From: Mesodorylaimus sp. YZB2_4
Taxonomy: Eukaryota > Nematoda > Enoplea > Dorylaimida > Dorylaimidae
NCBI GenBank assembly: GCA_030248295.1
Contig: JASANH010001344.1
Span: forward strand, 62,001-126,000
Reading direction: 5' to 3'
Length of the DNA: 64,000 nt
The notes beneath the pieces were generated by a model. It searched no databases. It was not told where the DNA came from and worked only from the letters and a program-made list of their open reading frames with translations. This document shows, one piece after another, positions 4,629 through 51,529 of this stretch; position 1 is the first letter of the stretch, and the number at the start of each line of letters is the position of its first letter. A program made the position numbers and the translations under genes.

Positions 4629-9723
<5,095 letters not shown>

Positions 9724-16300: not shown

Positions 16301-18760
16301 AACCTTGCAAGGGGGAATGGTTTCCTGCTGACATAGCCTTGACGTGGCTTATGTATGCGGCTAATAGGATGAGGTGTGCTGGTTCTCGTAACCCAAATTC
16401 AGGATTCGAATCTGAACGTCATCTTGACCAAAATTTCCAGAAACCTTGGTATAAGAACTATCGCGGTACCATCATTCAATGTGGCCCGCAGAGATATCTT
16501 GATTATGGCGAAATCGCGGTTTTGGACAACGAAACGTTGGAAATCACTGAATTGCCGCACGATGAAGCCACTCAAGCGTACAAAGAAAGCGTTTTGGAGC
16601 CGTTGTTGAATGGAAACGCGGAAAAACAACAGCCGGCGATGATTACGTAAGAAATTGCCGTCTTCTTCGACTGATATTGTGATTCTGAGGTCTTCTGTTT
16701 TAGGGACTATCGAGAATACCATACTGATCGGACAGTACGATTCGTTGTGAAAATGGCGGCTGACAAGTTGGAACAACATCGTGCTAATGGTGGTTTGCAT
16801 AAATTGTTCAAATTGCAATCGACGATTACTTTGACATCCATGGTAAGTCCATGTTCGAGAGTGTACTTTGCTTTGCAAAATTCTCCCGCTACATTATTCT
16901 TTAAATTAGGCTTCTCAAGCAAGGGAGTTCCCTCCCCAACCATGCCTGGTGGATGAGGCTAGTGTCATCATTCTGCTTTTTACTTTAGGTGCTGTTCACC
17001 GCTGACGGTTGTCTAAAGAAATTCGAGAACGTGGAAGATATTTTGAAAGAATTCTACACGGTTCGCTTGGGATTGTACGAGAAACGCAAAGCTTATTTGG
17101 ACGGATTATTGCAAGCAGAAGCGAGTCGATTGAGCAATCAAGCCCGTTTCATTCTGGAGAAAATCGATGATAAAATAATTATGGAGAAGAAAAAGAAACG
17201 TGAAATCGTGGAGCAATTGATCGCTCGCAAATACGACCCTGATCCTGTAAAAATATGGAAGGAGGAGCAGAAGAAGAAGGTAAGACAGCTGAGAATATGA
17301 TTTGCTGATGGCGGGGCGGGGATTCTGGACAGATTTCATACGACACATCGATTTTAGGAGAGTCGGATGGGAAATGACGATGAGGAAAACACTGCGGAGG
17401 GAGAAAGTGCCGACGAAGGAGAAGCAGATGGTGCGAACGTTCAGTTGGTGAATTACAATTATTTGGTGACCATGCAATTGATTAAGTTATCCGAGGAGGA
17501 AGTGGCCAAGTTATTGCAAGAGCGGGACAAGAAGTACGAGGAACTGAATATTTTGCGTGCTAAGACGCCCAAGGATTTGTGGTTGGCCGATTTGGAAGCC
17601 TTTATGGAAGCGCTAGATAAGCACGAAGACAAGGAGAAAGAACAGGCAGCCGCGGCTCCCCAAGTAAGCGTGGCGACTGGTGGAAAAGCTAGTGGAAAGG
17701 GCAAGGACACGGCACCGAAGAGGGCGAAGAAACAACAAACGCAAGCTGTCGAAACTTTGCCCGCGCAAGATGGAGAACGAGTAGAGCCAGTGGTAGATTT
17801 GGCCACGAAGGAAAAGTATGAGAAAGCAGACAAGGCAAAGGAGAATAAGGCTACTGGTGCGACGAAGCGAGGAAAGGTGAGTAATTGAATTAGGGGCCTG
17901 GTAGTATGAAAAGAAGTGTTTATTATCAGTTTGATGAAGCAGTCAGTCAGAAAGAACTAATCTATTTTTTAGAGGAAATCGGATGACCTGGAAAGCAGCG
18001 GGCTGGCTAAGCGTGTCAAGAAGCGCATGAGCGATGAACCGAAGCCAGTAGCGGATGACAAAGGTAAGGGGTTGGAGCTGTCTGGGTATAGGATTATCCG
18101 ACTGATTGAGTCAGTCCGCGGTGGGACTCTTTTCTTCTGCATCAAACGAGTGGCATGTGCCTTATTTATGCTATCTCTTGGCACCCATGTGAAAATAGTA
18201 ACGTCTTGCCTAATGACAAAAACAAGCTTTCTTGGAAATGAATCTTTGATTCTTGCATACTCATCTCCATACGTACTGTATAGTACATACCCGTACTGTA
18301 GATACTCCGCTGTGGTCACTCTTTCATGCATGGCTAACAATTGCAAAGGGGTCGTCATTTTTCAGGTATCAAGCGTTTTCTCACGGCAAAGACACAAAAC
18401 GAGGATAAACCTAATGCGGCTAAAAAGCAAAAACGTGCTCCTAAAGCGAAACAGCCGAAATCTGACGATGAGGATGAAAGTGAGGAGGAAGTGGTTTTGG
18501 ATGACTCAGATTCGGAGGCTTCGTTCAAACCATCGCCGCCCAAAAAAGCCAAGATGACTGAAAAACCAGTCGCTGCGAAGAAGAAACCGGCCAAGAAAAC
18601 AAAAGGCAATATGTCGGATTCAGGAGACGATTTCTTTATCGAGGATGATTCGGATAAAGGCGAAAGTGGCGATGATGAATCAAAAGCTGTTGCGTCGCGT
18701 CCAGCTCGTGCTCGTAAGCAAGTGGTGTACAATATCGATGACGATGAGGATGATGAGTGA
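10350..18760 (+). CDS. TOP2: DNA topoisomerase II
   Basis: The enzyme passes one DNA duplex through another using ATP, in replication, transcription and chromosome segregation. Twenty exons: 10350-10661, 11955-12112, 12615-12760, 12813-12910, 12969-13181, 13240-13416, 13494-13598, 13650-13844, 14236-14475, 14536-14661, 14718-14937, 15126-15328, 15447-15832, 15978-16209, 16441-16646, 16704-16842, 16989-17279, 17358-17876, 17973-18063, 18366-18760. All phases agree: 1483 aa, normal for the family. Visible motifs in order: GHKL ATPase EIVVNAADNK, NNGRGIPV and GGLNGFGAKL; the QTK loop in DSQTKENMTL; TOPRIM EGDSAKSLAVAGL and DQDGSHIKGL; the active-site Tyr in ASPRYIFTML. The C-terminal domain is Lys/Asp/Glu-rich and ends RARKQVVYN plus acidic residues. 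The start is the first ATG; no upstream in-frame ATG was seen. Confidence 0.97.
11074..11194. repeat. Degenerate tandem repeat in TOP2 intron 1
   Basis: About eight units of 14-16 bp, each starting TTGCGCC or a close variant followed by a T-rich or mixed tail, for example TTGCGCCGTTTTAC and TTGCGCCGTTTTGTG. The array sits in the 1293-bp intron 10662-11954. Confidence 0.75.
11298..11346. repeat. Inverted repeat in TOP2 intron 1
   Basis: Arms 11298-11308 (TGGGGAGGACG) and 11336-11346 are exact reverse complements separated by 27 bases. Nearby sequence is rich in GATCCGAT and CGGATTGGATC stretches, probably the remains of an inverted-repeat element. Confidence 0.6.
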
Positions 18761-19091
18761 GCGGGGACTTGGGAGTTGGTTTTTACGTTTTTCGTTTTCT
18801 TGGTTTTATTTTCTGTAAACAAGCGGCTCTTATTAGATTCGCTTTTTTCCTGTTCATAATTGCGGGACTTTGAGGTTTTTCATAACAACGCCTCTGATTT
18901 TCTGATTGTGTCACGAACGATGTGGAAAACGGCTGTATGGTTTAGGCGTTGTGATAAGGCGGGGTGCAAGCAATGGATGATTGGGAGGTGGGTACAGGCA
19001 CTGTAGGGTGGGGGTGACCCACATTCGTCTGAGGTCAGTGGGGCACACTGTACATATAAGGGAGAACAGACCATAGCTGACAATCACTTGG
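18761..19091. other. Short gap between convergent genes
   Basis: TOP2 (plus) and DEG/ENaC copy 1 (minus) end toward each other, with 331 bases between stop codons. Both 3' ends must be here. I see no canonical AATAAA for TOP2. Confidence 0.5.
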
Positions 19092-21954
19092 TCACTTCTT
19101 ATCATTTATCGATCGGCGGTATGCTTGGGCTTCGTTCACAAAGAACACGTCCTTCGGTGGCGGGACTCGAACTGAATTCATGGCCAGCCCCTCTTCCTGC
19201 CTTTTAATCCTGCGGCCGACCAGGCGAGTGCGGCATAAATCGATGGCCAGGAAGAAGAGTTGGATGAGGGAGATGATGCTGGCCCCGATCCACAGTCCCA
19301 GCTGGCCGCCGATGTTGGCCACGAACGTGTCGAAGGTCATCGATTCGGATTGTTCGACTAAAGTGTAGCGCAGATCCCCGAATGCTATGCGAACTATGGC
19401 CATGTCCTTTTGACGACGATGCACTTCTTGCTGGTATGTGAAAAATATTTGACTTTTTTCTTCCCATTCCGCCATTGCCGCCTAAATAGGAATCTGATCG
19501 ATTGAATCGATCAATCGGTGCGATCGGATTGATTAATGGATCGATGATCTCACCTGATATCGATTGATTGCATCAGTTTGATTGCTTGAAGTATCGTTCT
19601 GATTAGCGTCATTGATCGGGTCAGTATCGCTGGTGTCATCTGGATAATAAACCCATGGTGGCTGTGGTTGGGGACCAGGGTACATCGCTGCGAGAAAAGA
19701 GATCAGGGTGATTATTGGGTCGGAAATCAATGGACAACATCGACTCACAGTAATCGACTTCTCCCCTCTGATCATTGAGGGGCAGGGAAGTGGATCGATA
19801 ACTGATTTCCCACCCGGTGCAGGGGGTCCGACAGTGGTCCCTGATGCACTTGCTGATGTTCTCCCGCTGCCTCTTCTCCACATCGTCATAGAAACACTCT
19901 ACAGTCTTGTTGATTGAGCACACTCGATCGATCAGGTGGGCGGGAAAATCACGGTGATCGATAGGTAGCAGACATTGGCATTCGGCCATGACCACGTCCT
20001 GCACACACTCCAGGCGACAGGCCGTTTGAGAATAGGGCAATGTGGAGTACCGGAATTGCATCGATTGATCATCCCGTTCTCGGCATTTCTGAGTCACGAG
20101 TCCAGTATCGACGCTGATCAATCGATAATTGGTTGCTGATAAGGAGATATCGGTCACGTAGCCCGGACTGGCGTACACTCCACTGCTCTTGTCCATACTC
20201 GCATCGAACGCGTCGTCGTAGCTGGCCACCAAACGGACCCCGTCCATGATGGGTCGGAACGAGGGCGGGTACAGGTCGCGATGGATGTCCAGTGCCAGCG
20301 AGAGGCCGTGTCCCCGCGAGGTCTGATTGAACATGCGCTTGCCAGGGAACAAAAAGCATCGGCCGTAGTCGGGATCAAATCGATCGATAAAAATCGATTT
20401 TTTGCAAGAATCGATCGATGATTGACCGAAAGAGCAATCGATTATGAATTCGGATTTATCGTAACCAATCAGACGAAACAACTCTTCTGCTGTTTCTGGA
20501 GGAGGTGGTGGCGGTGGTGGTGATGCAAGTGTCGTTGTCGTTTTAGTACCTCCAGAACCGCCTACACCAGGTGCCATGGGCGGTGGTGGCGGCGGAATGT
20601 TTTGATTTCGAGTGTCTGAATTTGTGGTCAATCGATTGAGGACGCCTGATGCATTCTGAAAATGAGCATACCTGTAATTTACTTCTCGTGGTTTTATCAA
20701 CCGTAAAAGATTTAGCATGGTTGACCAAACCATGTGAGCCCATCGTCCGGTGATCTAAATTTAGGCCCTGTCCGTAAATACATTTTAATTAATTGCCAAG
20801 TTTTATTTATCTCGGCGAGGCCATGTAGGTGGATGACGCAGAGTTCCCTGCAGCCTTGCTGGCCGTGCTGTAGTCATGGGGTCGTGTGGGTGCATCCCTG
20901 TAACCAAGGAATACCCGTCTCGAAAGCATGTTGCTCAGGCGAGTGAGAAAGTGTAAACACGAGTCATCATGTCCCGATATGGCGAGGTTGCAAATTTTGA
21001 ATTAGTTTTGTCTTATATAACCGAAGGAGGCTTCATTGAAATCTAAGACAAACTAAATGGATGAAATTAAGTAATTTGGATTGGATTGGATTAAAAATTA
21101 GGGGTCACATTTTAGAATCTAAGGTGTGACTGTAAAAGTAGAGGGCCTGTGTGTAGAAGAAATATCGACCTCAATCGTATACGTACTACGCACAGCACCC
21201 TCAAACGGGGCGGATTATCAAAATCTATCTTGCGGTTCTCAAGGGACTCTGAAAAAACCCTGCTGAGTAAGACCTTGTTTTCAAACAAAGCGCTGCACTT
21301 GTAGAGCGGCGAGAACGACCTTCAAACATTAATCCAATTGCTGCTACTTGATCTTGCTAACAGGATGACTGGGGAAAAACTTTCTGATTTTATAACCTGT
21401 AATCCAGTGCACTTGGACCACTGTAGATTGGAAAGGAGAAGTAATAATGCACAAAGCCCCATTATGGTCGTCATGTCTTACCATGAGATCACGGCGTGAC
21501 TGACCACACACAAAATAAAAAAGGGTTGGATGGAGCGCTATGGGATCGAACCCTCCCCACTTACCCTCTGCTGCCCAGCGGTCAAGAACAATTTGGCCAC
21601 TTGGACATACTCCAGGGTCAACGCCCGTCGATTATCGATTGAATTTATGGGGCAGATATAAATGTCAGGGAACGGGATACTCTCTCGGACCATAATCTTG
21701 GTCGAGGTCACGATCGGGCTTTGACGATAAGTCTGCACAGCCGCCACACACTCGTAGATGCCGACCCCGAAGGCCCCGATCAACAGCAGGCCCCAGATCA
21801 CTTTCATCGATCGATTATCGGCCGATTTGAATTCGATCACTCCATCCACGCACAATCGCCCGATACGCTCATCGAGCCAGCTCGACCGGTCCATCTTGGC
21901 AGTGGCTGGCTCACGGAGCGATTGCTCTGGTTTGACTCTCCAAGTACTAGCCAT
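19092..21954 (-). CDS. DEG/ENaC (amiloride-sensitive) sodium channel, copy 1
   Basis: Members of this family form trimeric cation channels with two membrane helices, gated by peptides, protons or force. Exons on the minus strand: 21954-21565, 20655-19749, 19687-19554, 19481-19092; phases agree, 606 aa. Exon 1 gives the cytoplasmic N-terminus, TM1 (near residues 50-72) and FPDIYICP, matching the post-TM1 family motif. Exon 2 has a Pro-rich stretch, then the Cys-rich extracellular domain with RLECVQDVVMAECQCLLP. Exon 3 encodes a Pro/Asn-rich linker with no family match. Exon 4 gives the pre-TM2 segment and TM2, with the selectivity signature Gly-Ala-Ser in GLWIGASIISL. A near-identical paralog lies at 27291-29851, except for exon 3 and both ends. 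The last codons differ: copy 1 reads through a codon (CGA) that is TGA in copy 2, adding seven residues. Gating stimulus cannot be read from sequence. Confidence 0.92.
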
Positions 21955-22005
21955 GATGGGAATGATGGACTACTTCAACTGCCAGGTTACCATGCAAGTT
22001 GGTCG

Positions 22006-22060
22006 TGTTACTAGGCGTGCCGAATAAATAGATATTCCACGAGGCCCATTAGTGAAATGA
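22006..22060 (-). promoter_or_regulatory. Conserved upstream block of DEG/ENaC copy 1, possible promoter
   Basis: Lies 52-106 bases upstream of the start codon and is mirrored at the same distance in copy 2 (29921-29976), both containing GCGTGCCGAATAAA. On the coding strand this gives an A/T box like TCTATTTATTC. It could be a core promoter or simply what is left of the duplication. Confidence 0.4.
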
Positions 22061-23045
22061 ACATGTTCAATTAATTAAAACATGACATTTTATTATTACA
22101 CGGTGAACGCACTGGCAGAAATATAGATAATTGGCGTGGCCAGTAAGGTAGGCAGGTATTGAATAAGAGATCACGAACCTCTGAGCATGGCTTATGAGAA
22201 TAAAATGAGCTAAAAACACCTAAAACCACTGGCATCCTACGTGACTGAGTCCATTAGCTCAGGCACTGGGGCTTCCAGTGGGCCTCACCAACGAATCTGC
22301 GCTTCATACAGCTCCCCAGCCAATCAGTCACAAAGTGTGGATGGCGCAGTTGGGCCTAGTAGCGCCTCGTCCCCACACCCAGTCTCATTGTTTTGGCCGC
22401 TTGGTTTGAGTGTTATAGCAAAAATGAGCCCAGTTTTTGCGGGATTTTTACTTTAGCACCCTCATGTTACTTAGCATTTTGAGTTGGCGTCCTCTGGTTG
22501 CCTCATTGAGGAACCGAGTTTGGACAATTTGGACTCCTCGACGTTCTTGCACGGCCCGTTCTGATTTGTTGGACGGCCTTGTTCATTGGACGACTGCACG
22601 GCATGATTTTTTGGAGCTTCTAGTATATTTGGCCGGTTTGTGCCCATAGACCCACAATGAGACAAAAACTATAAGGAGGATGAATTTCCACTCAGGCAGA
22701 GCGACAGAGCACACGTTGTTAGTGCTCGGCGTTGTGCGATCGGAATAGGCAGTCTCTCGTCGATTCGAGCTCGCGACCCTTCAATCTGCACCAAAGTTTT
22801 AGAGGCCACATCGATCTTGTAGTTTCTGAGACATTGACCGTGATTGTTGTTGCTCTTTTTTTATTCTGTGTCCTCTCCCTTATGAGTGCGCTGATTAGTG
22901 TTAGGGATGAGAGTAAATAGCAATAGCAAGCTCTGATCGTGAGCTCGTGTGTTTTGGTGGATGGCCAGGCTAAAAGAAGTAAAGGACGACAAGACTAGTG
23001 CTCCAATGACCTGGGTTTTTCACTGTCTGACCTGACCCTGGCCTT

Positions 23046-23113
23046 GACCAGCCCCTCAACAAACTTGCTGAGTCGGAGCCTGACATTGAACAGCCCCTCA
23101 ACAAACTTTCTGA
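23046..23113. repeat. Two-unit direct repeat, 42-bp spacing
   Basis: The 26-bp stretches starting at 23046 and 23088 differ at two positions and share CAGCCCCTCAACAAACTT. A weaker third unit may follow near 23150. No gene nearby. Confidence 0.65.
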
Positions 23114-24692
23114 ACTGACCTGCGAGGACTTGTAAATTTTCTGGCTCTGACTCTGACATTAATCAGACCAAAAAATGATGCTTATGATCGGCACCAGCAA
23201 CAAAGCTTCTCTCTGTGTTTGCAATTTTTCCAAGAAATTTTACTACAGCTTACAATATCCTGGCATTTCGTGAAATTTAACGTGCAGCCCAAGAAACGGA
23301 GTTTTTCATCAATCTCAAAAAGATATGCAAAGCTGCTTTTGATAGTTTAAGGAAAATTAGAGGAAATCCTATAGAAAATCAAAAATAGATCTCATTTATT
23401 ATAACATCAATTCCTGTTCCAACTGCCTGCCCGCCCCATCATCTAGTGCTTTTCCCACCAATCGCAATGCTGGCTTCCGTACAAAGGCGTCTTACCAGGC
23501 TGGAAGTGGCTGGTACAGCCAGAATACCTTGCGCCAATAAAGCCAGGTTTGGATATGAAGAAATGGGAAGAGATAGGGATGGCTAGGCCACTCCAAGGGT
23601 ATGCAAGCGAGCACTACGTTGGCACACAGTAGTCCATGCAGCTGAGCTAGTAGGTTACTGTACGAGCAAGATAACTGCAATAGCACAAGACTCACAATCA
23701 GCAGGGGCCAGTTTCACAGTGCGATCCTAATTTTAAGACGGGAGCGAATTCAGGCCACTGTTTAGGACAGCAACTTGGGACAACGCTGAGACACTGATTC
23801 AGGGCGTGTCACAGAGGTGCCTTATCCATAGATTTAGGCGTCCCCTAAGTCATGTCACATCTTGTTTCACAGTGAAAAGGATGACCAAATTTTTAGCAGA
23901 CCTCAAAATTCAACGCTGGAAACACATACTGTACGTGTAAGCTGGGCACTTATTACTGGTCGAAGTTTGCTGTGCGATTGTATCTGAATTATTTTACTCA
24001 GTCACGAGGACGCCTTGGCTAAGGCAGGCTGGTCCACATTACAGTATATGAGCTCTGTGAACGTGCCAAATCGGGTTTATTTTGTGAGCTTTACTATGGG
24101 TTTTATTATTTGGGAATCCTCGTTTTATACACAAAATCTGATCTCTATGTTAGTGGGCGGCTCTGTGTACCACATTATTTGGTTTTTCCAGGTCATAATT
24201 TTGAGTCCACAAACAGAGTTTTTTGTTTTCTGCGACAGTTTTACGGGATTCCGTACCGTGGGATCATGCTTGCTAGTAACTTTATCACGCGTATAAGTTT
24301 TGATTAATTTTAAGTGTGTCTCTCGCCCCTGTCAAGTGCATGGGCCGGGAGTAAAATGATAACGATGGGATTCTGTCGTCCCTTTTTGGCCTCAATGGCT
24401 AAATAGGTACATTTTCTCTAGGTACGATCTTTGACAGCGAGAATACGACGTCCTTCATTCTATATGCCAATTCAATTTTTATGCTCAAAATTATTAAATG
24501 ATATCAATAAGCTTCATGGTTTTATCAGTCCGCTTCCCTGAGCACTCTGAGTTTGCACTAATATACTGTATGCAGGAAGGCACTATGTTATGGCAAAGTC
24601 TGAAATGAGATCAATATTGCGATATCATGGGGAGGGGGCTTTCCATGAGAACCCTGCAGGTGGATCCGACCAACTAGTAAAGCAGTATATCA

Positions 24693-24830
24693 GATTCGGG
24701 AAACGACTTCTTTATCGAGGGCTAGTCGGAAAAAGACGAGAGCGGTGATAATGAACGAACAGCTGCTGCGTCCTGCTATTGCATCGCGCTGTTAGCAAAT
24801 GGTGTACAATCGACGACGGTGAGGATGATG
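24693..24830 (+). pseudogene. Fragment of the TOP2 last exon
   Basis: Matches the 3' coding end of TOP2 (about 18617-18756) over its whole length. It keeps GA(T/C)TTCTTTATCGAGG and GTGGTGTACAAT-like blocks in the same order, with scattered substitutions and several stop codons in the ancestral frame. It has no promoter or start and cannot make a TOP2 domain. It lies about 6 kb from its source, in the same orientation. Confidence 0.8.
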
Positions 24831-24933
24831 GTCCCGCGTCCAATATTCTTACAAGGTCAGCAGCATCGTTGCGAATGTTGTAAAGTATCTTGGGTACTAC
24901 TAGCATCGAACTTACAGTCCACTGAGCACTGCA

Positions 24934-25119
24934 GAATTGTATCGAAAAGACCGAGATCAATCATGGGCGGTGCCAGACGCCGTTTTGGAAAATCATCACG
25001 CATGGTTCAAATTATCCACTCGCAATGTATTCTACCATACTTGGACTATGGATTTATTGCTTGGTCGCCAATTCAAAAGTTTTTTAAGTGACTTGCCGTT
25101 CGTCTCACCGTATTGGTAG
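24934..25119 (+). other. Unidentified open frame, possibly a captured exon
   Basis: An AG-bounded open stretch of about 60 codons contains VLENHHAWFKL and FYHTWTMDLLLG, with codon choice like the real genes here. It follows the TOP2 fragment directly. I do not recognise the family. It could be a piece of another gene carried by the same event, or chance. Confidence 0.3.
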
Positions 25120-26235
25120 CAGTAGGGTTCGATCCCTGGCGATGGAGGTCGGTTTGAGAGCCGTAAACCCTCGTAGTATCCTAGGTTGCCCCGAGTGGTT
25201 GCACCGAGTGGAGACGTAGTATCCTAGGTTGCCGTATGTCCAGGGTTGCCGACTAATGTATAGGAAGGATACGGGAGAGGTCAAACCTGTCCTAGGTCGC
25301 CGAACACTGATCATAACATCACCTCGCTGCCACCCGCCGCCACGCCTTCAACACGTGACCATGCATACCCCCGTGCTATACCACATGCGCGCGGGCGGTG
25401 CGAAAATGTCTGATCTGTACTTTCCACAGGCCACACACACAAAACATACGCACCCCACCCCTCGTCTATACTTTTGTACTCTATTCCTAAGGTAACGATA
25501 AGGCACCAAAGCCATTCATGACTGGAGCTCACGCTCGAGTTTGCAAGAATCGCGGGGTGCGTTTCTTGCAGACAATGCAAGAATGTGTCGATGGCTAGGT
25601 GAAGTTTTCCGAATTCTTGGTTCATTCTGTTATTCCAGCCCTCTGCATGGTTGTTCGTCCTTGGAACCAGCCTGCCTACCCACCACGATACAATAAAAAT
25701 TGATGGGGTTCAAATAAAAATGATTAGCCTCAGTTCGACTTTTGCAAACGAGCATGTTAAAATTTCCGTGAATTGTGTTCATCTTTCGAGAACCCTTTCC
25801 GCAACAAAGTCCGTAAAATTTTCTAAAGAAAAGCAACGCGGCGCCTCTGTCACATCGTATGTAGTACAATGCGCACAGTTTCCGATAAACTTTCAGAACA
25901 GAAAATGTACTTGCGCATCATATTTTGTATACTGTAGATGACCATTGGTCGGCAACATAGGACGGCTTTGACCCTTGCCGTATCCTTAAACATTAGTCGG
26001 CAACCCTGGATGGTCGGCAACCTAGAGCATATTCAGTGGTGAGACGGAAGCAAAACGAGCCGACAGTCTCGGCTGTCCAACACCGACAGGTTTCACAGCC
26101 CACCCGCCGGGTTTCCAGTCCAGGATGTCCCCGTGGACGCTACTGTGTGTGCTGATCCCGCACAGCCTTGCTTATAAGGTTTGACTGCTGGCCGGCCGGA
26201 AGCAAAACTGGCTACGCCACAAAAAATTTTAAAAA
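25100..26235 (+). mobile_element. SINE family A split by a foldback element
   Basis: The left piece (about 25100-25171) holds the SINE A B-box region GTTCGATCCCTGG and following GAGGTCGGTTTGAGAGCC. The right piece (about 26036-26235) resumes with GAGACGGAAGC, the GACAGTCTCGGCTGT block, TTATAAGGTTTGACTGC and the A-rich tail. Between them lies an inverted-repeat element, so the SINE was there first. Confidence 0.7.
25172..26035. mobile_element. Foldback element with long imperfect inverted ends
   Basis: The left end (25172-25310) has CCTAGGTTGCC twice, then GTTGCCGACTAATGTATAG and GGATACGGGAGAGGTC. The right end (about 25945-26035) gives these in reverse complement and reverse order: GACCCTTGCCGTATCC, then CATTAGTCGGCAACCC, then CGGCAACCTAG. 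The 19-bp repeat CGTAGTATCCTAGGTTGCC occurs at 25172 and 25214. No transposase is evident in the 600-bp middle, so it is probably non-autonomous. Confidence 0.7.
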
Positions 26236-27290
26236 TATGCAGCTTTATCGGCCTACTTAACAAAAGCGTCGAAGGATCTTTTCATTCAAGGATCTTTTAT
26301 TCTAAAAAATCTACAGCGGCTATACGGCCTATCCGAATCGTCATCTTCAGCATCAATCAGATACTGGTCAGCGCAGAAGTGCGAGGACCGTCATGGTGCC
26401 GCAATTTTTCTGTTTGTGTCGCAAACGACGAGAATAGTTTTGAGCACTGTACTGTATAGTGTAGGGACAGCGTGGGCGCCTGTCGGTGGACGAGTCATAG
26501 ATGAGAATCAGCTGTCCGATGAGGTGTAGATAATAGAAGGATTTTTGCAAAGTCGAGTTCTTAAAAAAAGAATGAAAATCTTAAGAAAAATGTAGAGAGT
26601 TGGTTCTGAGGTTTCAAAGTTTGAGCCACGCGCTCCACCACACTGGAAATCAATAAACCACTTGAAATCGATCATTGAGCTGGGATGGCGGGGAAAACTT
26701 ACGGCGAAATCAGTTTGTCTGAAATTTTGTAAAAATCAGATATTGTCGTTTTGTACTTTTTGTTTGAACAGTTTCGATGGGTGCTCGATGAGCATGAAAA
26801 GACATTACGATGCGTACGTTCGTTCTAGTTCTTCGACTACTTCTACTGTAGTTTCTTTTTCGTAAACACATAAACGTGCACTCATCTAGCAAAAGAAAAA
26901 AAGGTGAAGTGAAAGAGGAATGTCATTCCGAACTTATCCTGGAAATCGAGTCACGATATCTCGCATGTCAGATAAAGAGGCCATCGCACAGCGAAGGACT
27001 CCATATGGCGAATATGAAAAACCTTGCCTAAACCTTCAGCGAATTCAGCCTTCTTGTACGGACACTGGACGTATCACCCGTTCGATGGACCAAGATATTA
27101 TACGACAAATCATGAATTTGCTAAACTGGAATAGCTTTAAGTGCTTTCTACAATAATAAAAAAGTGAAACCGCGGCATCAGCATATGATACATTGAAATC
27201 CAAAAAATATAATCGCTCAGACCTTAGTTGACAGACTGATACTACGTCCTGTCCGCTACTCTGGGGATATCACTTCTTATCACTAATCGA

Positions 27291-29851
27291 TCAGCGGTAT
27301 GCTTGGGCCTCGTTTACATACAGCACGTCCTTCGGTGGTGGCTTTCGAACTGAATTCATGGCCAGTCCCTCTTCCTGCCTTTTCCTCATGCGGCCGACCA
27401 GGCGGGTGCGGCATAAATCGATGGCCAGGAAGAAGAGTTGGATGAGGGAGATGATGCTGGCCCCGATCCACAGTCCCAGCTGGCCGCCGATGTTGGCCAC
27501 GAACGTGTCGAAGGTCATCGATTCGGATTGTTCGACCAGAGTGTAGCGCAGATCCCCGAATGCTATGCGAACTATGGCCATGTCATTTTGCTGACGGTGC
27601 ACTTCTTGCTTGGACGTGCGAAATGTTTGGCTTTTTTGTTCCCATTCCGCCGTACCTGGCTAAAAATGAAAGAAAAACATAAGCGATTAAATCCATTGAC
27701 TCAAAGCAATCAATAAATCAAATCGAAAGCTCGAACTCACCTGGTCTTCAAAGATCGCTCCAGTTTGAGTTCTCGACTTATTCTTCGGATCAATGTTAAC
27801 AGCTGTGTCAGAGCTGTTATCCAAATCGTAATCGCTTGGTAGTAGCGTTGGCGAGGGGTCAGGATTCAATGCTGTGAGAGTAGTTATCTAGCTTATTATC
27901 AGATTAGGAATAGGTAAGCAAAATCATCTTACATGGATCGATTTCTCCCCATTGATCATTGAGGGGCAGGGAAGTGGATCGATAACTGATTTCCCACCCG
28001 GTGCAGGGGGTCCGACAGTGGTCCCTGATGCACTTGCTGATGTTCTCCCGCTGCCTCTTCTCCACATCGTCATAGAAACACTCTACAGTCTTGTTGATTG
28101 TGCACACTCGATCGATCAGGTGGGCGGGAAAATCACGGTGATCGATAGGTAGCAGACATTGGCATTCGGCCATGACCACGTCCTGCACACACTCCAGGCG
28201 ACAGGCCGTTTGAGAATAGGGCAATGTGGAGTACCGGAATTGCATCGATTGATCATCCCGTTCTCGGCATTTCTGAGTCACGAGTCCAGTATCGACGCTG
28301 ATCAATCGATAATTGGTTGCTGATAAGGAGATATCGGTCACGTAGCCCGGACTGGCGTACACTCCACTGCTCTTGTCCATACTCGCATCGAACGCGTCGT
28401 CGTAGCTGGCCACCAAACGGACCCCGTCCATGATTGGTCGGAACGAGGGCGGGTACAGGTCGCGATGGATGTCCAGTGCCAGCGAGAGCCCGTGTCCCCG
28501 CGAGGTCTGATTGAACATGCGCTTGCCAGGGAACAAAAAGCATCGGCCGTAGTCGGGATCAAATCGATCGATAAAAATCGATTTATTGCAAGAATCGATC
28601 GATGATTGACCGAAAGAGCAATCGATTATGAATTCGGATTTATCGTAACCAATTAAACGAAACAACTCTTCTGCTGTTTCTGGAGGAGGTGGTGGTGGTT
28701 GTGTTGTTGTTGTGGACTGCGAGTCAAAACCAGCGCCATTACTTGATCCCACAATCGAAAGTACTGGAGCAATATTCAGATTTCGAGTGTCAGAATTTGT
28801 TGTCAGTCGGCTGAGAATACCAGACGCATTCTGAAAATGAGTATGCTGATTGCATTTATTAATGGCATGATTTTGTTGGATGTCTAATCTTTTGACACGC
28901 CTGACAGAAGTACGCATTATTGTAAATGCTCCCCAATCTGAAGTGACAATAGTTAATTATTCTGCATGCTTGTTTCCATGACATCCATTTCGATCAATGG
29001 GAAGGTTTTATTTTACTAGGGTCCACAGCAGCAGTCCTTTTGTAGGACGGGGCAGGATTCCTAAAGCACTTGGGGGGGGGGGGGGGGGAGTTGGAGGGAG
29101 CCCACCTGTAGTCACGGGTAAGGGCACATTCTTGGTACCAACGATTACACGTGTAATTTGCATGTTATTGAGAAAAGCAAAAACACGATTTTATATTGGC
29201 TGGAAATTTCAATGCACTTCGTTTCCCTTTGCAGTGAAGTACATATGATACTGCTGATAATTTTGACGTTTCCTATAACAGGGGTGAAGCTGTGGGAAAA
29301 GTTTGAGCCCCACAACCTTCAGTCCATGCAAAACGTACGAGGCTTGGTCTGGCCGTACGATGAGATCTCAGTGTGACTGCCAACACAAAAAAAATAAAAA
29401 AAGCGTTGGAGCGTCATGAGATCGAACCCTCCCCACTTACCCTCTGCTGCCCAGCGGTCAAGAACAATTTGGCCACTTGGACATACTCCAGGGTCAATGC
29501 CCGTCGATTATCGATTGAATTTATGGGGCAGATATAAATGTCAGGGAACGGGATACTCTCTCGGACCATAATCTTGGTCGAGGTCACGATCGGGCTTTGA
29601 CGATAAGTCTGCACAGCCGCCACACACTCGTAGATGCCGACCCCGAAGGCCCCGATCAACAGCAGGCCCCAGATCACTTTCATCGATCGATTATCGGCCG
29701 ATTTGAATTCGATCACTCCATCCACGCACAATCGCCCGATACGCTCATCGAGCCAGCTCGACCGGTCCATCTTGGCAGTGGCCGTACGTGAATTCATGGC
29801 TGGCTCGCACAGCGATTCCCTGGCCGCAACTTTCCTCCAAGTGCTACCCAT
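27291..29851 (-). CDS. DEG/ENaC (amiloride-sensitive) sodium channel, copy 2
   Basis: Tandem paralog of the gene at 19092-21954. Exons on the minus strand: 29851-29441, 28830-27933, 27871-27741, 27659-27291; phases agree, 602 aa. TM1, the post-TM1 motif FPDIYICP, the Cys-rich ectodomain and TM2 with Gly-Ala-Ser are all present. About 740 bp of exon 2 differ from copy 1 at only a handful of bases, and exon 1 is almost as close. In contrast, the first 40 or so codons of exon 2, all of exon 3 (an Asp/Ser/Thr-rich linker starting SLNPDPSPTLL) and the intron bodies do not align well. The start codon used is the ATG at 29851; it adds a short AMNSRT insert relative to copy 1. Both copies look intact and could form mixed channels. 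Confidence 0.92.
29072..29088. repeat. Run of 17 G in DEG/ENaC copy 2 intron 1
   Basis: A homopolymer run in intron 28831-29440. Similar G or C runs occur at 119-130, 12454-12467, 42108-42121 and about 59289-59301. Their length may be a sequencing uncertainty. Confidence 0.8.
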
Positions 29852-30307
29852 CGCGCAAATGATGGGTGGCACCAACTTCAGGCTGCTAAGCAGATAAACT
29901 ACCAAATAACCTGGCAATTTTTGTTACTAAGCGTGCCGAATAAAAAGAGATTGCTCAAGCCCCATTAGTAAAATGGCAATTTCAGATGCCAATTACTTAA
30001 AATACTAGTATCACAAATTTTGAATTTAGCGCTTTTTTATTTGATGCGCAGGTTCTTCTATATTTGGTGCGGTCTCTTACAGCAAAAGGTACCGCGTTTT
30101 CCTAGGCGCCTTCAAATTGCTCGTGCGTCTAGCGTCAGTTATTCACTAAACGCCATTGTTTTGTTTTTTCCGATCTAATAAAACGGGTCGGCTAAATAAA
30201 ATTGTTTCTTCGTAATTTGATCGATAAATCGTTGTAAAATCGCTTAATTTAGTTTTTCCAATTTTGCACTGCTCCGTTGCCGTCGAATTACGATTTTCAA
30301 ATTCAAG
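29852..30307. promoter_or_regulatory. Bidirectional intergenic region
   Basis: DEG/ENaC copy 2 (minus) and the charged nuclear protein gene (plus) start 456 bases apart and diverge, so both promoters must be here. The part next to the channel gene (29921-29976) resembles the upstream block of channel copy 1. Confidence 0.45.
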
Positions 30308-31793
30308 ATGCCCAGAGGCGCGGCTACAGGTAACGTACTGTACTGTACATATGTACACATCAAAATGTTCTTAGAGAAATGGCACATTGTTTGTCGTTTT
30401 AAACAAAGATAAGATTTGTCACACCTGTGAAGGCTGTAAAACCATCATATGTTTCAGTCATATAGAACGGATTTCGGCTTTCTAATTTTTTAGCTGCAGT
30501 ACCCTATACGTACATACGTGAGCTTACCTATGGGTAGTATAGGCCCGCAAAGGTAGCATGTTTGTAGATAGACTTGGGGCACATTCGTTTTTTTCTAATT
30601 ATAGAAAAAACCAGATATTGACGTCTTCGTTGTTTTGGTTTTGTTCATGAAGTGCAGTGTGCCTGGTCTATATATTTTTCTCCTGAACATGCATTTCATT
30701 GTAGACCTACGAAATCAGAGCATAGGTTTCATGTTTTTTTGCTGAAACTAACACTTGCGGGTATATGTCTGATCTAAGCTGTGTTTATTTTTTCTTTGTA
30801 GCTCGTAAAGGAAAGTCCAAAGGCCCGGCACCGAAAAAACAAAAAAAGGAAGAATCCGAGTCGGAGGAGGTATGTACCTAGATCATGATTAAACTGAGTT
30901 TCTCGTACCTCCTGGTCAAAGTGAATGCGGAAACCGTCTGAGCAGTCATTTGAAAAGTTTTGCCGTGGTTTTTAGTACATTGAGTTGACTGCTTGTAATC
31001 CAGCAACCGGTACCAATGTCCAAAAGCTTTCTGGCCTAAGTTTATGCAGTTTGACTTGGCATGACGTATTTTGTAATTTCTCGGTTGGCATTGGTTCTTT
31101 TTTTAGCACTCTGATGATGAAAACGGTGGCGAGGAATCCGATCATGGCTCTGACGCTGGCGGTTCGACTAAGGAGGTGAAAGCTGGTGGCGAGGCTGAAA
31201 ACAACGTAACGGCAAAGGTGAGCGAAAAATCTGAAGCCGATGACAAAAAAAGTGAAGCGGAAAAGTCCAAGGAAGAATCAGGCGACAAGAGCCCGGAGAA
31301 AGGTGAAGGCGATAAGAAAAAGGTGAAAGAAGGCAGCGAAGGCGAGGAAAGCGACGATGGTGAAAAAGAAACGAAATCATCACCGGTCAAGAAGCCTGCC
31401 GCCAAAGCTTCCCCCCGTGCTCGACCGAAAATCGACTACCGCCAGGAAGGGGAAGAAGATGAGGAGGAGGATAACGACGATGACAAGGACGATTTCCACG
31501 ATGAAGATGAAGAATCGCCGTCGCCCGACGAAGACAGTGGAAGCGATTACAAATCGGACGACGATGACGATGAAGATAGTCGTGGCGGTAAATCTAAGAA
31601 GGCGAAGGGCGGGAAGAAAGCCGCGGCCGCTGGTGGCAAAGGGAAAGCTAAAGGCAAAGCTGGCGGTGGCGACGAAGGCGGAGCGAAAGGCGGAAAAAAG
31701 AAGAAAACTGCAGCGGCGTCAGCCCCGCGCATCGAACGTCCAACTCGTTCTCGCAAGCAGGTCAGCTACAAAGAAGATGAAGGATCCGATTAG
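30308..31793 (+). CDS. Charged nuclear/chromatin protein with topoisomerase II-like tail
   Basis: Three exons (30308-30329, 30802-30869, 31107-31793) with matching phases encode 258 aa. The protein starts MPRGAATARKGKSKG, then has alternating acidic (Asp/Glu/Ser) and basic (Lys-rich) blocks and no globular domain I can see. An AKGGKKAAAAGGKGKAKG-type basic block precedes the end. The C-terminus, RPTRSRKQVSYKEDE, closely resembles the last residues of the TOP2 in this window (RPARARKQVVYNIDD). In vertebrate topoisomerase II this tail helps hold the enzyme on chromatin, so a chromatin role is inferred. It might be a DEK- or nucleolin-like low-complexity protein, but no diagnostic domain is present. 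Function unknown. Confidence 0.8.
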
Positions 31794-34150: not shown

Positions 34151-34799
34151 TGCAAAAAGAACTGTGAGTCAGTATGCCGGTGTATTAAAAGATGAGTTTA
34201 CTCACTGGCACTCGAGAATTTCCAAAGAAATTAAAAAATTGTGTGGAACTGTTAAAAACGGACCTCAGGCTGTCAGTGATCAAACCATTGCATGCTCAAA
34301 GGGTTCCGAAGGCGTTTGATTGCGTCTGGTCAGAACTATGATAGCCGCCAGCTGAGCAAGGACTGGTATATTTAGCGCTGTTCGAGATGCTCAGCAGTGC
34401 ATTGCTATGTACAGAGATAATGTGACTCATGTCCGCTTTTCTTGATAAGTTTCAAACGTTTCTAGGAACTGATCCCGGTTGCAGGCCAAATTAATGTTAT
34501 GAGCAGGTGGATGAAAGCAAGGCAAAAACCATGAACCCACAGTATGTTCTATCTGAAAATCCATGTTTTTGACATAAAAATTTCGCGGAAGGAAATTTTC
34601 GCGGTCGAGGCCATCCGCGAAATTAAAGTGATTTACTCGTCAGTTGGACAACCCGCTTGATTCAGCTTCAGATAGCCAAAAACTCGCAATTATGACTGCC
34701 GGCATATCAAGTACAATTCAGAGCGATTAGTCAGCACTGTACAACAAAGCGGCATTCTGTCGTCGCAACTTGTCTGTGAATTCGGGAAAGGGCTTTAAT

Positions 34800-35215
34800 G
34801 TTCAGATAGAAGGCGTTTTTGAATTGCTTGAAATGGGCGACCTCGACTAGCCACACGAAGATGTAGGACGTGAGGGAGATCAGGCAGAGGACACAGAGGA
34901 TCAGGGCCAGCGTGATCTTCTGCGTCGAGTAATCGGGGGTGGTCGTATCGGTCAGCGTAGAATCAATGAGTGAGGTGTTGGAAGCGGCAAGCTACAAGGC
35001 GCTGAGGAATGCGCTAGTTATAGCCATGCTTGTATCGTCCATGTCGGCAAAAAGGGCTGGAGCTAGAAATCTGAACATGGTTTTTATTGTTATTGCAAAG
35101 TCGATGAAACACTTGGCAACTGCCTCTCTTCCCTGGCTGACGGATTCTTCGGTCCAGTGTTTTGCGACCTGAAAATCGAGTTCTTTGAGATGACAGTAAA
35201 CGCGACTGTAATGCA
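34800..35215 (-). pseudogene. Truncated GPCR pseudogene
   Basis: The minus strand matches the 5' part of GPCR copy A: upstream acceptor and VAKHWTEESV (copy A: VSKEWTEEEN), the Thr-rich N-terminus, then TM1 with ITLALILCVLCL and HFKQFKNAFYLN. An in-frame TAG lies in the N-terminal region near 34990, and homology stops after TM1. Helices 2-7 are absent, so no receptor can be made. Confidence 0.85.
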
Positions 35216-38449: not shown

Positions 38450-39595
38450 ATGCGGTTTTTATTGAAACTGTTTTTGGTCCTAGTTTGTTCACCAGTATTT
38501 GTGTATTTCAGCCTGTTGATCATGGATTCATCGGATATTTTCACCAACATTCACAAGTCATATACGATAAATCGAGCTAGTAGTCAACCAATACTGACAT
38601 TTGACGGGACATTTTGGCGATGGACAGATGAACTCGAAAATTCAAAAACCGAAACCCATTCGACCATATTATACACTTGTGGACATTTAGTACGGTCATT
38701 TTGGGATGGTCGGCTTGGCAGCCAAATGTTCGTTTATGCGTCCTTTTATGGCATGGCGAAAGAACAAGAAATGCGAGGAGCCAACAAGACGGCTTATATT
38801 CGTGTGTCGCACATTCCATCCTCTCTGGATTATATCTTCGAGAATTTGACAATCCCTCAATAAGTTCTCAATGACTCTTTTCTCTCGTCAAACCATCTCA
38901 CAGATCTGCATGAAAAAAAATTCAGTACGTTTGATGACACTGGATTGAAAGACCTGCGCTGCGATGGGAAAAATTATTATGTGAAAGGATTTAGAACGAA
39001 TTACCGCTATTTTTCAAATTTTGTTGATCAGATCAAAGGAGAATTCAAATTCCATCGACATATTCTGGAAAAAGCTCAGAAACTGCTCATTCGCACTTTG
39101 ACTAGCAATGATTTAAATCATGATGATTCGATTTTGGTTGGTGTACATTTAAGGCGAGGCGATTTTTCTTTGCCTGATAAACTAGAATTTGGTCATTGGC
39201 CTGCAAGTAAAGACTATTTAAGAAAATCTATCAGATTTTTCGAAACTGTATTTCAAGATTCTACAAATAATACACGGCAGTCAAATTTAGTTTTCCTCAT
39301 ATTCGGAAATGATGATGACTGGAACAATGACGCCATAAAAACGGTCATTCTGAAACACCCGAATCACACGCAATCGATTTTTATGAACTCGAAAAATTCT
39401 CAGCCCGCCATTGACTTGTGCGCCATGAGTATGTGCGATCACATGATCATTTCGACGGGCACATTCAGCTGGTGGGCTGGGTTTTTTAGTCCAGGACTTG
39501 TCACGTATCAAAAAGAATTTTCGAGGCCCGGATCCTTTGTGTATAAACAATTTAACGCGGAAGAATTTTTTCCTGAATCGTGGATTCCATTGTAA
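38450..39595 (+). CDS. GT11 alpha-1,2-fucosyltransferase-like gene with an internal TAA
   Basis: The frame from ATG 38450 to the stop at 39593-39595 has no intron and spans 382 codons, interrupted once by TAA at 38861-38863 (codon 138). Both sides stay in the same frame and read as one protein. The N-terminus is a short tail plus a signal-anchor helix (about residues 1-24), as in Golgi type II membrane enzymes. Then come GRLGSQMFVYA, the GDP-fucose site VGVHLRRGDF and the C-terminal motif DHMIISTGTFSWWAGFF, all diagnostic for GT11. This family transfers fucose from GDP-fucose to glycans. The TAA may be a real nonsense mutation (recent pseudogene), an allelic variant or a sequence error. It would remove all catalytic motifs. 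Confidence 0.85.
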
Positions 39596-41999: not shown

Positions 42000-43156
42000 G
42001 GGGCCGTTCAAAAAACGACGTCGTCTGCGAAGCAATTTTTGACCCCTCCCCCTATCGTATTTTGTCGTTTTGCGCCTGACACCCCCTTTTCGACGTCGTA
42101 TAAGGCAATACCCCCCCCCCCAAACTGCAAAGTGGAGTGAAGACAAATTTTTAAAACACCCCGCCGCTGCTCATGACCATATTTCGTACGAGTCCATATG
42201 CTCCCATCCTCATATCGGTATACATTCCAACAATGTTTTTCGGAATGTTCAGAGACATTTAGTAATTTGATTTCAGTAAGAATTTGGCAGATAAAAAAGA
42301 GCTGATGGTTTCACAGCTTGACTCAACGCCTTTAGTTCCCAAAGACTGTCGGGGAATTTTTCAATTCATTGAACTTGTTCAAAATTGACTAAGCAGTATA
42401 ACAGCAAAACGAATAACACTTTATGATAGAGCACATTTTTCTTTATCGAACTTTGACCTTTCTGCTTTAAAAATTTTTTTGGCTGCAGCCTGTTTTTGTC
42501 TATAACTGGCCAGCAGTCAAACCTTCTAAGCATAGCTGTGCGGGGACCGGCACACACAGCAGCATCCCTCTGCGTGTCCCCAGTGGGAGCGCCTCCACGC
42601 GATGGCAACCTGGACTGGACACCGACTTCCTCGGACGATGGCGAGCTTGCAACCCGTGTTCAGCAGCTGCGACTGTCTCCTCATTTGGCTTTCGTCTCTC
42701 CACTCGGAGCACCTCTATATTACTGGGTGAGTCACCCACAGCCCGGCGTGGCGTGAAAGGTCAGCGAGGGTTCATGGTTCGCAAACCGACCTCCATCAGC
42801 GGGCATTGAACCCAGGGTAAGTCTAGCCGCGCTACTGACTAAATATGGGGAGACAAATGCTGAAACCGCGCCGCACGAACGCGGCCGCTTCCTATAACAA
42901 ACTGAGTCTGGCCAATCCACATTATTATAACCAAAACAAGCATGAATAGGTGACCCAAAAGTGGCGGAACTGAGCTCATCTGACCGTAATTAGGCTCTAG
43001 CAGGAGAGTTCGAAAGGAAGAAAAATGCTGCAATACCTAGTGCAGAAACGAAGTCGTTTTCCTTTTGACCGCCCCCCCCCATTGTCGTTTTTTCTCGTTT
43101 TAGTGCTGAACCCCTCCCCCTCCTGGCGTACGACGTCGTATTTGAACGGCCCTATG
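42000..43156. mobile_element. Inverted-repeat DNA element with a nested SINE
   Basis: The left end GGGGCCGTTCA followed by ACGACGTCGT (42000-42025) is mirrored at the right end by ACGACGTCGT then TGAACGGCCC (about 43131-43153). Subterminal sequence is C-rich with GTCGTTTT motifs on both sides. SINE A occupies 42484-42893 within it. No transposase is visible. Target duplication is unclear, possibly TA. Confidence 0.7.
42484..42893 (-). mobile_element. SINE family A copy (minus), nested
   Basis: The minus strand begins with GCGGCCGCGTTCGTGCGG, then a decayed A box and B box region (GGGTTCAATGCCC), followed by GGTCGGTTTGCGAACC, ACCCTCGCTGACC, GAGTGGAGAGACGAAAGCC and the TCCGAGGAAGTCGGTGTCC block. 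The 3' end near 42484 matches AAGGTTTGACTGCTGGCC. Confidence 0.8.
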
Positions 43157-43580: not shown

Positions 43581-44729
43581 TCACGAAGCAACACCATTTG
43601 GAGCACCAACAGCTACAGCCGGAATCGTGGCGACTTGAGCCAGGGCGGAGTCGATTACTGGATCAATCGAAATACGCCCAAGTTTCTTTAATTTTACTAC
43701 TAATACCTGAAAATCGTTTTTGGCGGCAGTTTGAATTCTCTGATCGAAAATCACATAAATGAATGGATTAGCTGCGACATTCACCAAACTTAGTATATTG
43801 ATCGCGAAATGAGATACGAGTTTGTCGAAATCAGTGCGAGCCAAGGGTTCGAGCCAGATGGACAGAAGGTACACGATGACGATGCCAGTGATGACTGAGA
43901 ATTGTAGCAGAATACGCAGTTCCCGCTTCGAGGTTTGGCCCACCATGGACACATCGCCCACAGTCTGTCTCCGTCTGGCAATGATGGCTGCCCAGGTGAT
44001 GGCGTAGAGCAGGGTGGCCAGGACTGGCAGTGCGCTGATCACCGCCTCGTTGACGGCATGGACGATGGGCGCGTGGAGTGTGCCGTGGGTGGCCTCCCAG
44101 TCCAAGGTCGCTGACGAGTAGTGCCACTGGCAGTCGGTCAGGATGTTGGCCAGGAGGAGAGCCAGGGAGCAAGTGTAGAGGAGGGCCAGCAGGGCCAGCG
44201 TTCTGGGCAGGGGCACGCACGAGGGGAGGCACGAGCACAGTTTGTACGTGCTCGATGTGATGTGCGACCATCGATTAACGGCGATGCAGAAGATATTGGC
44301 GCTCTGGGTCAGACTGGCGTACATGTGGACATGGCCGACGACCGTGCCGCCCATGCGCCCGTAGATAGCACGGTCGAGGAGGATGCAGGGGACGCAGTAG
44401 AAGAGGGTGCTGGCCAGGATGGTCGCGTCAGAGAGACCGGTCGAGACGATGTTCAGATAGAAGGCGTTTTTGAATTGCTTGAAATGGACGACCACGACGA
44501 GCCACACGAAGATGTAGAACGTGAGGGAGACCAGGCAGAGGACACAGAGGATCAGGGCCAGCGTGATCTTCTGCGTCGAGTAATCTGGGGTGGTCGAATT
44601 GGTCGGCGTAGAATCAATGAGTGAGGTGTTGGGCGTGAGAGGAGACATGGTGGTAAGGAAGGTGCTAGTCGTAGCTACGCTTGTGTCATCAACTTCGAGA
44701 AAGGGGTTGGGAGTGAGAAGACTGGACAT
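43581..44729 (-). CDS. Rhodopsin-like seven-helix receptor, copy A
   Basis: An intronless coding exon of 382 aa. I take ATG 44729 as start; the open frame runs further upstream, but there lies a splice acceptor (TTTTTCAG before VSKEWTEEEN), so that part is probably 5' UTR. The N-terminus is Ser/Thr-rich with possible Asn glycosylation sites. Seven hydrophobic segments follow. TM3 ends in AVNRW in place of the usual DRY, and TM7 has NPFIYVIFD, the NPxxY motif. Ligand and G protein cannot be told. It is almost identical to copy B in the helical core, but the C-terminus (after NDFQ) and the N-terminus differ. Nematode chemoreceptor-type families are an alternative assignment. Confidence 0.85.
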   Translation of the reverse strand: MSSLLTPNPFLEVDDTSVATTSTFLTTMSPLTPNTSLIDSTPTNSTTPDYSTQKITLALILCVLCLVSLTFYIFVWLVVVVHFKQFKNAFYLNIVSTGLSDATILASTLFYCVPCILLDRAIYGRMGGTVVGHVHMYASLTQSANIFCIAVNRWSHITSSTYKLCSCLPSCVPLPRTLALLALLYTCSLALLLANILTDCQWHYSSATLDWEATHGTLHAPIVHAVNEAVISALPVLATLLYAITWAAIIARRRQTVGDVSMVGQTSKRELRILLQFSVITGIVIVYLLSIWLEPLARTDFDKLVSHFAINILSLVNVAANPFIYVIFDQRIQTAAKNDFQVLVVKLKKLGRISIDPVIDSALAQVATIPAVAVGAPNGVAS

Positions 44730-45117
44730 GGTTTCGATTATTTGTGTGAACTCGAGCAAATACTCAATAACAGTCGATGGCCCCTTTCTTCCTTGCAAAC
44801 AATTTTCTTCTTCGGTCCACTCTTTTGAGACCTGAAAAATCAAGCACTTTTTTGAGATGAATGAGAAAGGCTGTACAGCAATTCAGTCTCATCATATCAG
44901 AACTAATTTCGCAAATTCGGATTTTCGCAAATTCGGATTTTCTGAATTGTTGTTTCGAAACTCCAAAAAACATGACAGCCATTTTGAAACATATTTGGAA
45001 ATATGTAACTTCAGGCCTCACAGTGGTTATCGCAAGGCAGACGCTTCCCCTATCGCGACTATAATCGTAAACAGGCTAGTATGGAGCCATCGGACTTGTG
45101 CTGACCATTGGACAAAT

Positions 45118-46950: not shown

Positions 46951-47040
46951 CTTCTGCATCGCCGTCAATCGATGGTCGTACATCACGTCGAGCACGTACC
47001 AACTGTGCTCGTGCCTCCCCTCGCGCGTGCCTTCCCCCAG
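46951..47040 (+). pseudogene. Inverted GPCR fragment
   Basis: About 90 bases on the plus strand match the coding strand of GPCR copy B from FCIAVNRWSYITSSTY to LCSCLPS, so the fragment is inverted relative to the gene it adjoins. It has Tyr where copy A has His, so it derives from a B-like sequence. Confidence 0.8.
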
Positions 47041-47089
47041 AATTTCGCGCCCGATGTTGTAGGACTGCCAAGCTGAAATGTGTGATCTG

Positions 47090-50987: not shown

Positions 50988-51395
50988 GGCCGCGCTGGTG
51001 CAGCGGTTCGGCATTCGTCTCTCCGTATTGCTTGGGAGCGAGTGGCTGGGCTCGTCCCGGGTTCGATCCTCGGTGATGCAGGTCGGTTTGCGAGCCATAA
51101 ACCCTCGCTGACCTCGCACGCCAGGCCGTTGGTGACTCACCCAGTACCGTCGAGGTGCTCCGAGTGGAGAGACGGACGCCAAACGAGTAGACAGTCTCGG
51201 CTTTGAACCGACAAAGTTCAAAGCCCTTCCGCCATTGTCCGAGGAAGTCGGTGTCCTGTCCAGGATACCCTCGCGTGGAGGTGCTTCTAGTGGAGACACG
51301 CAGGGGGACGCTGCTATGGGCCGGTCCCCGCCTTGCTTATAAGGTTTAACTGCTGGCCGGCTGGAGGCAAAACGGGCTTCGGCCCACAAAAAAAA
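50988..51395 (+). mobile_element. SINE family A, full-length reference copy
   Basis: The head has an exact A box TGGTGCAGCGG (50996-51006) and B box GGTTCGATCC (51060-51069), spaced as in tRNA genes. The body runs through GGTCGGTTTGCGAGCC, GAGTGGAGAGACGGACGCC, GACAGTCTCGGC and a CCCTCGCGTGGAGGTGC block. The end is CTGCTGGCCGGCTGGAGGC, ACGGGCTTCGGCCC and an A-rich tail. A tRNA-derived SINE transcribed by RNA polymerase III is the best reading. Confidence 0.85.
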
Positions 51396-51529
51396 ATAAG
51401 GCAGTGTTCGGTATGTTGAAGTCGTTTGCAACTCTTGTGGTCACATTTGTGGATTCACTTGCAGTGTATGACCTGTTTGTCTTGATATCCCCACTGTGCC
51501 AAACGGCTTGGGAAGATCAATGCTTGACA

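Follow-up and report, generated by a model that had tools for sequence, protein, structure and literature searches.

Tandem DEG/ENaC genes and their architecture

We describe a pair of tandem genes for ion channels of the DEG/ENaC family, here called A and B, in a window of 64,000 nucleotides from the genome of the nematode Mesodorylaimus sp. YZB2_4 (C117:62001-126000; assembly of 145 Mb in 1067 contigs). N is absent throughout the window. Both genes lie on the minus strand at a spacing of about 5.3 kb (Table 1), and splice-site models together with matches to the Pfam family PF00858 (ASC, DEG/ENaC) bear out the coordinates and the family assignment given in a first-pass annotation of this DNA. 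Residues 36-554 of the gene A product score 214 bits against the profile, and for gene B exon 2 by itself reaches 100 bits (cut-off 23.6). Each gene comprises four exons, with intron phases of 0, 1 and 0 in both; the first ATG was taken as the start of A and of B, which is a guess. The same family gives at least 114 matches across the genome, counted exon by exon (93 of 1085 candidates scored), and its profile was also matched in one of 14 control genomes.

Matching to ASIC1 places the first transmembrane segment (TM1) in exon 1, most of the extracellular domain in exon 2, and the last extracellular strand and the second transmembrane segment (TM2) in exon 4. The TM2 segment GGQLGLWIGAS and the extracellular strand preceding it align with ASIC1 and FaNaC1 chains and contain a filter sequence of the G-x-S type; we take GAS within this segment to be the filter. 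Exon 3 encodes 44-45 extracellular residues between the CRTPC motif and the last extracellular strand, ahead of TM2, in agreement with its earlier description as an extracellular part before TM2; its divergence may, as proposed with that description, alter gating. The gap that matches exon 3 looks much shorter in the ENaC alpha chain 6wth_A, with the alignment of the CRTPC part below significance, and exon 3 is likely to be an insertion.

Table 1. Positions of genes, exons, homogenised blocks and related features (window coordinates unless prefixed with C23)
Feature	Position	Strand	Remarks
DEG/ENaC gene A	21954-19092	minus	open frames and splice sites; 606 residues, putative start codon
Gene A exon 1	21954-21565	minus	
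Gene A exon 2	20655-19749	minus	
Gene A exon 3	19687-19554	minus	diverged, homologous to exon 3 of B
Gene A exon 4	19481-19092	minus	
DEG/ENaC gene B	29851-27291	minus	open frames and splice sites; 602 residues, putative start codon
Gene B exon 1	29851-29441	minus	
Gene B exon 2	28830-27933	minus	
Gene B exon 3	27871-27741	minus	homologous to exon 3 of A
Gene B exon 4	27659-27291	minus	
Block 1	A 21894-21540 / B 29770-29416	minus	most of exon 1 and first 25 bases of intron 1; 2 differences in 355
Block 2	A 20494-19769 / B 28678-27953	minus	exon 2 body; 6 differences in 726
Block 3	A 19411-19180 / B 27589-27358	minus	exon 4 body including TM2; 8 differences in 232
Topoisomerase II 3'-end relic	24677-24830	plus	parent at about 18602-18755; 157-nucleotide match at 77%; in-frame stop in alignments
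Srx-like receptor copy 1	43584-44882	minus	PF10328; homogenised core
Srx-like receptor copy 2	47093-48241	minus	partner of copy 1
Broken third receptor copy	34725-35186	minus	one 184-nucleotide block, 34798-34981, 95% identical to copy 1
Second DEG/ENaC pair	C23:171000-175500 (L037) and C23:183000-187500 (L038)		12 kb apart

Silent divergence within the pair

Genes A and B form a mosaic in which three nearly identical blocks are set in sequence that has diverged strongly. The bodies of exons 1, 2 and 4 are almost free of differences, silent sites included, as had been noted for some 740 bp of exon 2; the corresponding statement for the whole of exons 1 and 4 holds for their bodies, while the N-terminal tail, the start of exon 4 and the C-terminal tail are diverged. 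Differences in block 3 become denser towards its 3' end, with 5 of the 8 lying between 19227 and 19188. At fourfold degenerate sites A and B differ at 3 of 179 positions inside the blocks and at 19 of 64 outside; the Fisher P of 8e-10 for this contrast is descriptive, because the block borders were chosen after inspection of the data. Shuffles that make no use of chosen borders give the same picture: 1 of 10,000 shuffles yielded a run of same-residue codons free of silent difference as long as the longest one observed (154 of 504), and for the gapless part of exon 2, whose longest identical run covers 333 of 772 bases, the figure was 36 of 10,000. When codons 20-130, 182-427 and 501-560 of gene A are counted as inside, which are borders slightly unlike those of the blocks, silent differences in same-residue degenerate codons number 6 of 396 inside and 30 of 108 outside, and residue changes 4 of 414 codons inside and 64 of 176 outside.

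The estimates of synonymous divergence per site (dS) follow the same division. The three cores have dS values of 0.013, 0.031 and 0.050, as against 0.82 in the N-terminal tail, 1.01 in the proline-rich start of exon 2, 1.11 in exon 3 and 0.60 at the start of exon 4; the C-terminal tail is intermediate at 0.26, and the 5 codons that end exon 2 offer too few sites for an estimate. Synonymous divergence is thus far from equal across exons 1-4 (0.013-0.050 in the cores versus 0.26-1.11 elsewhere), and blocks of low silent divergence within otherwise diverged paralogues, the pattern expected of interlocus gene conversion, are what the pair displays. The earlier suggestion that the core exons were converted is well supported by these counts. 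Because exons 1, 2 and 4 contain sharp shifts of divergence as well, the contrast is not one between exon 3 and the other exons.

Exon 3 itself had been called unrelated in the two genes, with its replacement offered as one of two likely causes, and neither idea survives closer comparison. The two versions measure 134 (A) and 131 (B) nucleotides, have the same phases and follow an intron 2 of 61 nucleotides in both genes. Their local DNA alignment score was matched in 0 of 2000 shuffles and the peptide score in 1 of 5000; among 2000 shuffles in each case, the score of intron 2 was matched once, that of intron 3 three times and that of the contiguous stretch never, and for intron 1 past base 60 the figure was 0 of 500. 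With substitution levels close to those of the proline-rich segment (nonsynonymous divergence per site, dN, 0.42 with dS 1.11 in exon 3; dN 0.36 with dS 1.01 in the segment), exon 3 falls in with the other unconverted parts of the genes. The same figures give no sign of positive selection on exon 3, both dS values being near saturation over few sites. Genome DNA searches (E-value up to 10, very common words skipped) found each version of exon 3 only at its own place. The two exon 3 versions are homologous, and as judged from their alignment they are old and not foreign; replacement or shuffling of exon 3 was rejected on the homology above shuffles, the equal phases and the lack of a donor in these searches.

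A broader form of the replacement idea would have the genes duplicate recently and one copy then receive foreign sequence in exon 3, the proline-rich segment and the introns. It draws on the poor alignment of exon 3 and intron 1 and on the global identity of exon 3, which at 0.542 lies above the shuffle mean of 0.435 and under the shuffle maximum of 0.554 (n=40 shuffles). We regard it as extremely improbable, as shuffles are outscored by exon 3, by intron 2 and by the part of intron 1 past base 60, lengths and phases agree, several independent swaps at matching places would be required, and the genome searches, within the limit just given, returned no donor.

Between the two genes lies a relic of the 3' end of a topoisomerase II gene, whose third positions differ from those of its parent at 16 of 59 sites, a proportion similar to that of fourfold sites lying outside the blocks (19 of 64). 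The tandem duplication of the channel gene probably also took in the end of the neighbouring topoisomerase II gene, to judge from the position and divergence of this relic. With 3 of 179 fourfold differences, the blocks are far younger than the duplication.

Similar mosaics in other gene pairs

Two further pairs show a like mosaic. In the window, two copies of an Srx-like G-protein-coupled receptor (GPCR), each a single open frame, differ at 15 of 858 bases in their core and at 40 of 156 and 28 of 132 at their ends, with fourfold differences of 5/157 in the core and 6/37 in the ends. Their flanks, compared ungapped, agree at 44 of the 100 positions that follow the last codon, counting the stop, and at 34 of 100 upstream. 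Just past the 3' end of copy 2 lies a 92-base inverted fragment of GPCR coding sequence (46951-47042), 90-92% alike. The second DEG/ENaC pair, on contig C23, has 0 silent differences and 2 residue changes over codons 20-160 of its first exon, and 0 silent differences and 4 residue changes over codons 40-120 of its second; the introns between the exon cores are more diverged and partly alignable. Near the end of the second exon a 4-base length difference puts the two copies in different reading frames. As both pairs show the like mosaic, exon 3 of A and B is not special, and since that of the GPCR pair lies within one open frame, the limits of the blocks follow the retained similarity of the sequence, whether or not an exon border is present.

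The frequency of such blocks was gauged by mutual blastn comparison of 20 stretches and positions 18001-31000 of the window, which cover only part of the family members in the genome. Eight contigs in this survey had comparable neighbouring DEG/ENaC places, that is, candidate gene pairs (C5, C26, C64, C94, C149, C185, C23 and C117, the last with the window). Blocks of at least 200 nucleotides at 95% identity or more occurred in two of the eight, C23 and C117; among the matches listed, neighbours in the other six matched at 71-85%.

These pairs bear on three other accounts of the nearly identical cores. Strong selection on silent sites, for example by an antisense gene or an RNA structure, might hold the cores identical, and open frames on the opposite strand do overlap them; nearly every silent site over about 1.3 kb would have to be fixed, and the like pattern in the C23 and GPCR pairs would need the same explanation, so that we give this account next to no credence. 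An assembly artefact, in which a single copy supplied both core sequences, is suggested by the proneness of near-identical blocks of several hundred bases to collapse. It is very unlikely here, given that the window has no N, that the blocks retain scattered differences (2, 6 and 8) and that such blocks occur in three pairs. Finally, the mostly exonic extent of the blocks could reflect retro-conversion by way of spliced complementary DNA (cDNA). Against this, block 1 crosses a splice donor, exon 3 is unconverted though it lies between two converted exons in the messenger RNA, and the GPCR pair is restricted to its core within a single coding frame, all of which makes a spliced template a highly improbable source. 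A DNA template is favored over spliced cDNA because block 1 passes the donor into intron 1, where A and B differ at a single one of the 25 bases covered.

Silent guanine-cytosine (GC) content is higher inside the blocks in the window. At fourfold sites it is 130/181 inside versus 41/97 outside in gene A, 128/181 versus 41/95 in gene B, and 129/158 in the core versus 32/63 outside in GPCR copy 1; across 24 distinct open frames of at least 300 codons at other DEG/ENaC loci (candidate channels, one of them from the C23 pair), silent GC ranges from 0.27 to 0.58. A general GC bias of conversion blocks fails in the C23 pair and, because that pair does not follow, GC bias is no more than a suggestion. 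Nor are GC-rich cores a general rule, since mammalian tandem arrays are described as AT-rich and low in recombination in the part of PMC10463633 used here.

Apart from these genes, the window has a match to glycosyltransferase family 11 (PF01531) at 38864-39592 and dispersed repeats in both orientations, about 71-94% alike, at 7680-7980, 26020-26230, 42466-42830, 51040-51400 and 58040-58300. The cuticle collagen N-terminal family has 133 matches in the genome and was found in 0 of the 14 control genomes; this family and the Srx-like receptors are both characteristic of nematodes.

Origin of the mosaic and known systems

Taken together, these results make it very probable that an old tandem duplication was followed by recent interlocus gene conversion confined to segments that constraint had kept alignable. 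The duplication would have produced the two DEG/ENaC genes and carried the topoisomerase II 3' end along. Purifying selection would then have kept the core codons close, in both transmembrane segments, the flank of TM1 and most of the extracellular domain, and conversion, recent and perhaps repeated, would have reset the silent sites of these constrained cores. Conversion requires near-identity over some length. The introns, the proline-rich loop, exon 3 and both tails may have drifted below the similarity needed, and would thereby have escaped passively and retained their old divergence.

Three observations weigh against this reading. A DNA search of the genome with the exon 2 core found A and B only, hence there is no outgroup copy by which conversion could be polarised; the best-scoring protein match other than A and B is 25% identical and likewise offers no usable outgroup; and the C23 pair has no clear rise in silent GC (47/82 in exon 1, 30/83 in exon 2). 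A third copy as donor or outgroup was rejected, the exon 2 core being found at two places only in that search. A stronger version holds that selection bars conversion from exon 3, the proline-rich loop and the tails, maintaining a common pore and fold with differing surface loops, and that conversion restricted to cores acts widely in this genome on tandem genes for receptors and channels, with cores rich in GC as the outcome; we consider it unlikely.

On the favored account of old duplication and recent conversion, the joint action of conversion and constraint can produce mosaic paralogues, with a more than tenfold contrast in silent divergence between the core and the loops of one gene, and trees or clocks derived from such genes will mislead unless the blocks are separated. 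The lead offered by a swapped exon is removed.

Interlocus conversion is a well-known process, of which the A/B pair is a new and clear example. Among the literature matches listed, we recognised no report of conversion in DEG/ENaC genes, which is weak evidence of absence. The portion of PMC3966223 drawn on here likewise states that near-identity over some length is needed, and describes conversion in Caenorhabditis as mostly reported for exons, with introns perhaps impeded by their faster divergence; tracts reaching introns made up 15% of the events that one study of C. elegans detected. In that portion, 2% of the 7,829 duplicate pairs of C. elegans are recorded as converted, with tracts averaging 117 bp; conversion declines with distance over 1-8 kb and perhaps prefers the same orientation, and surviving tracts aggregate towards 50-200 nucleotides (C. 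elegans range 12 to 2,958). Genes A and B resemble the Caenorhabditis paralogues so described in being neighbours of like orientation, separated by a few kb and with exon-biased conversion; they differ in their longer blocks, of 232 to 726 bp, and in an intron reach of only 25 bases. The voltage-gated sodium channel paralogues and duplicate exons of newts, as presented in excerpts of PMC8476164, are another case of partly homogenised ion channel coding sequence, although conversion is tied to toxin resistance there and no adaptive role is shown for A and B. A further case is that of fog-2 and ftr-1 of C. elegans, which the same portion of PMC3966223 describes as neighbouring paralogues with partial conversion and one divergent region; the divergent end in that pair is described as recruited novel sequence, whereas exon 3 is homologous in A and B.

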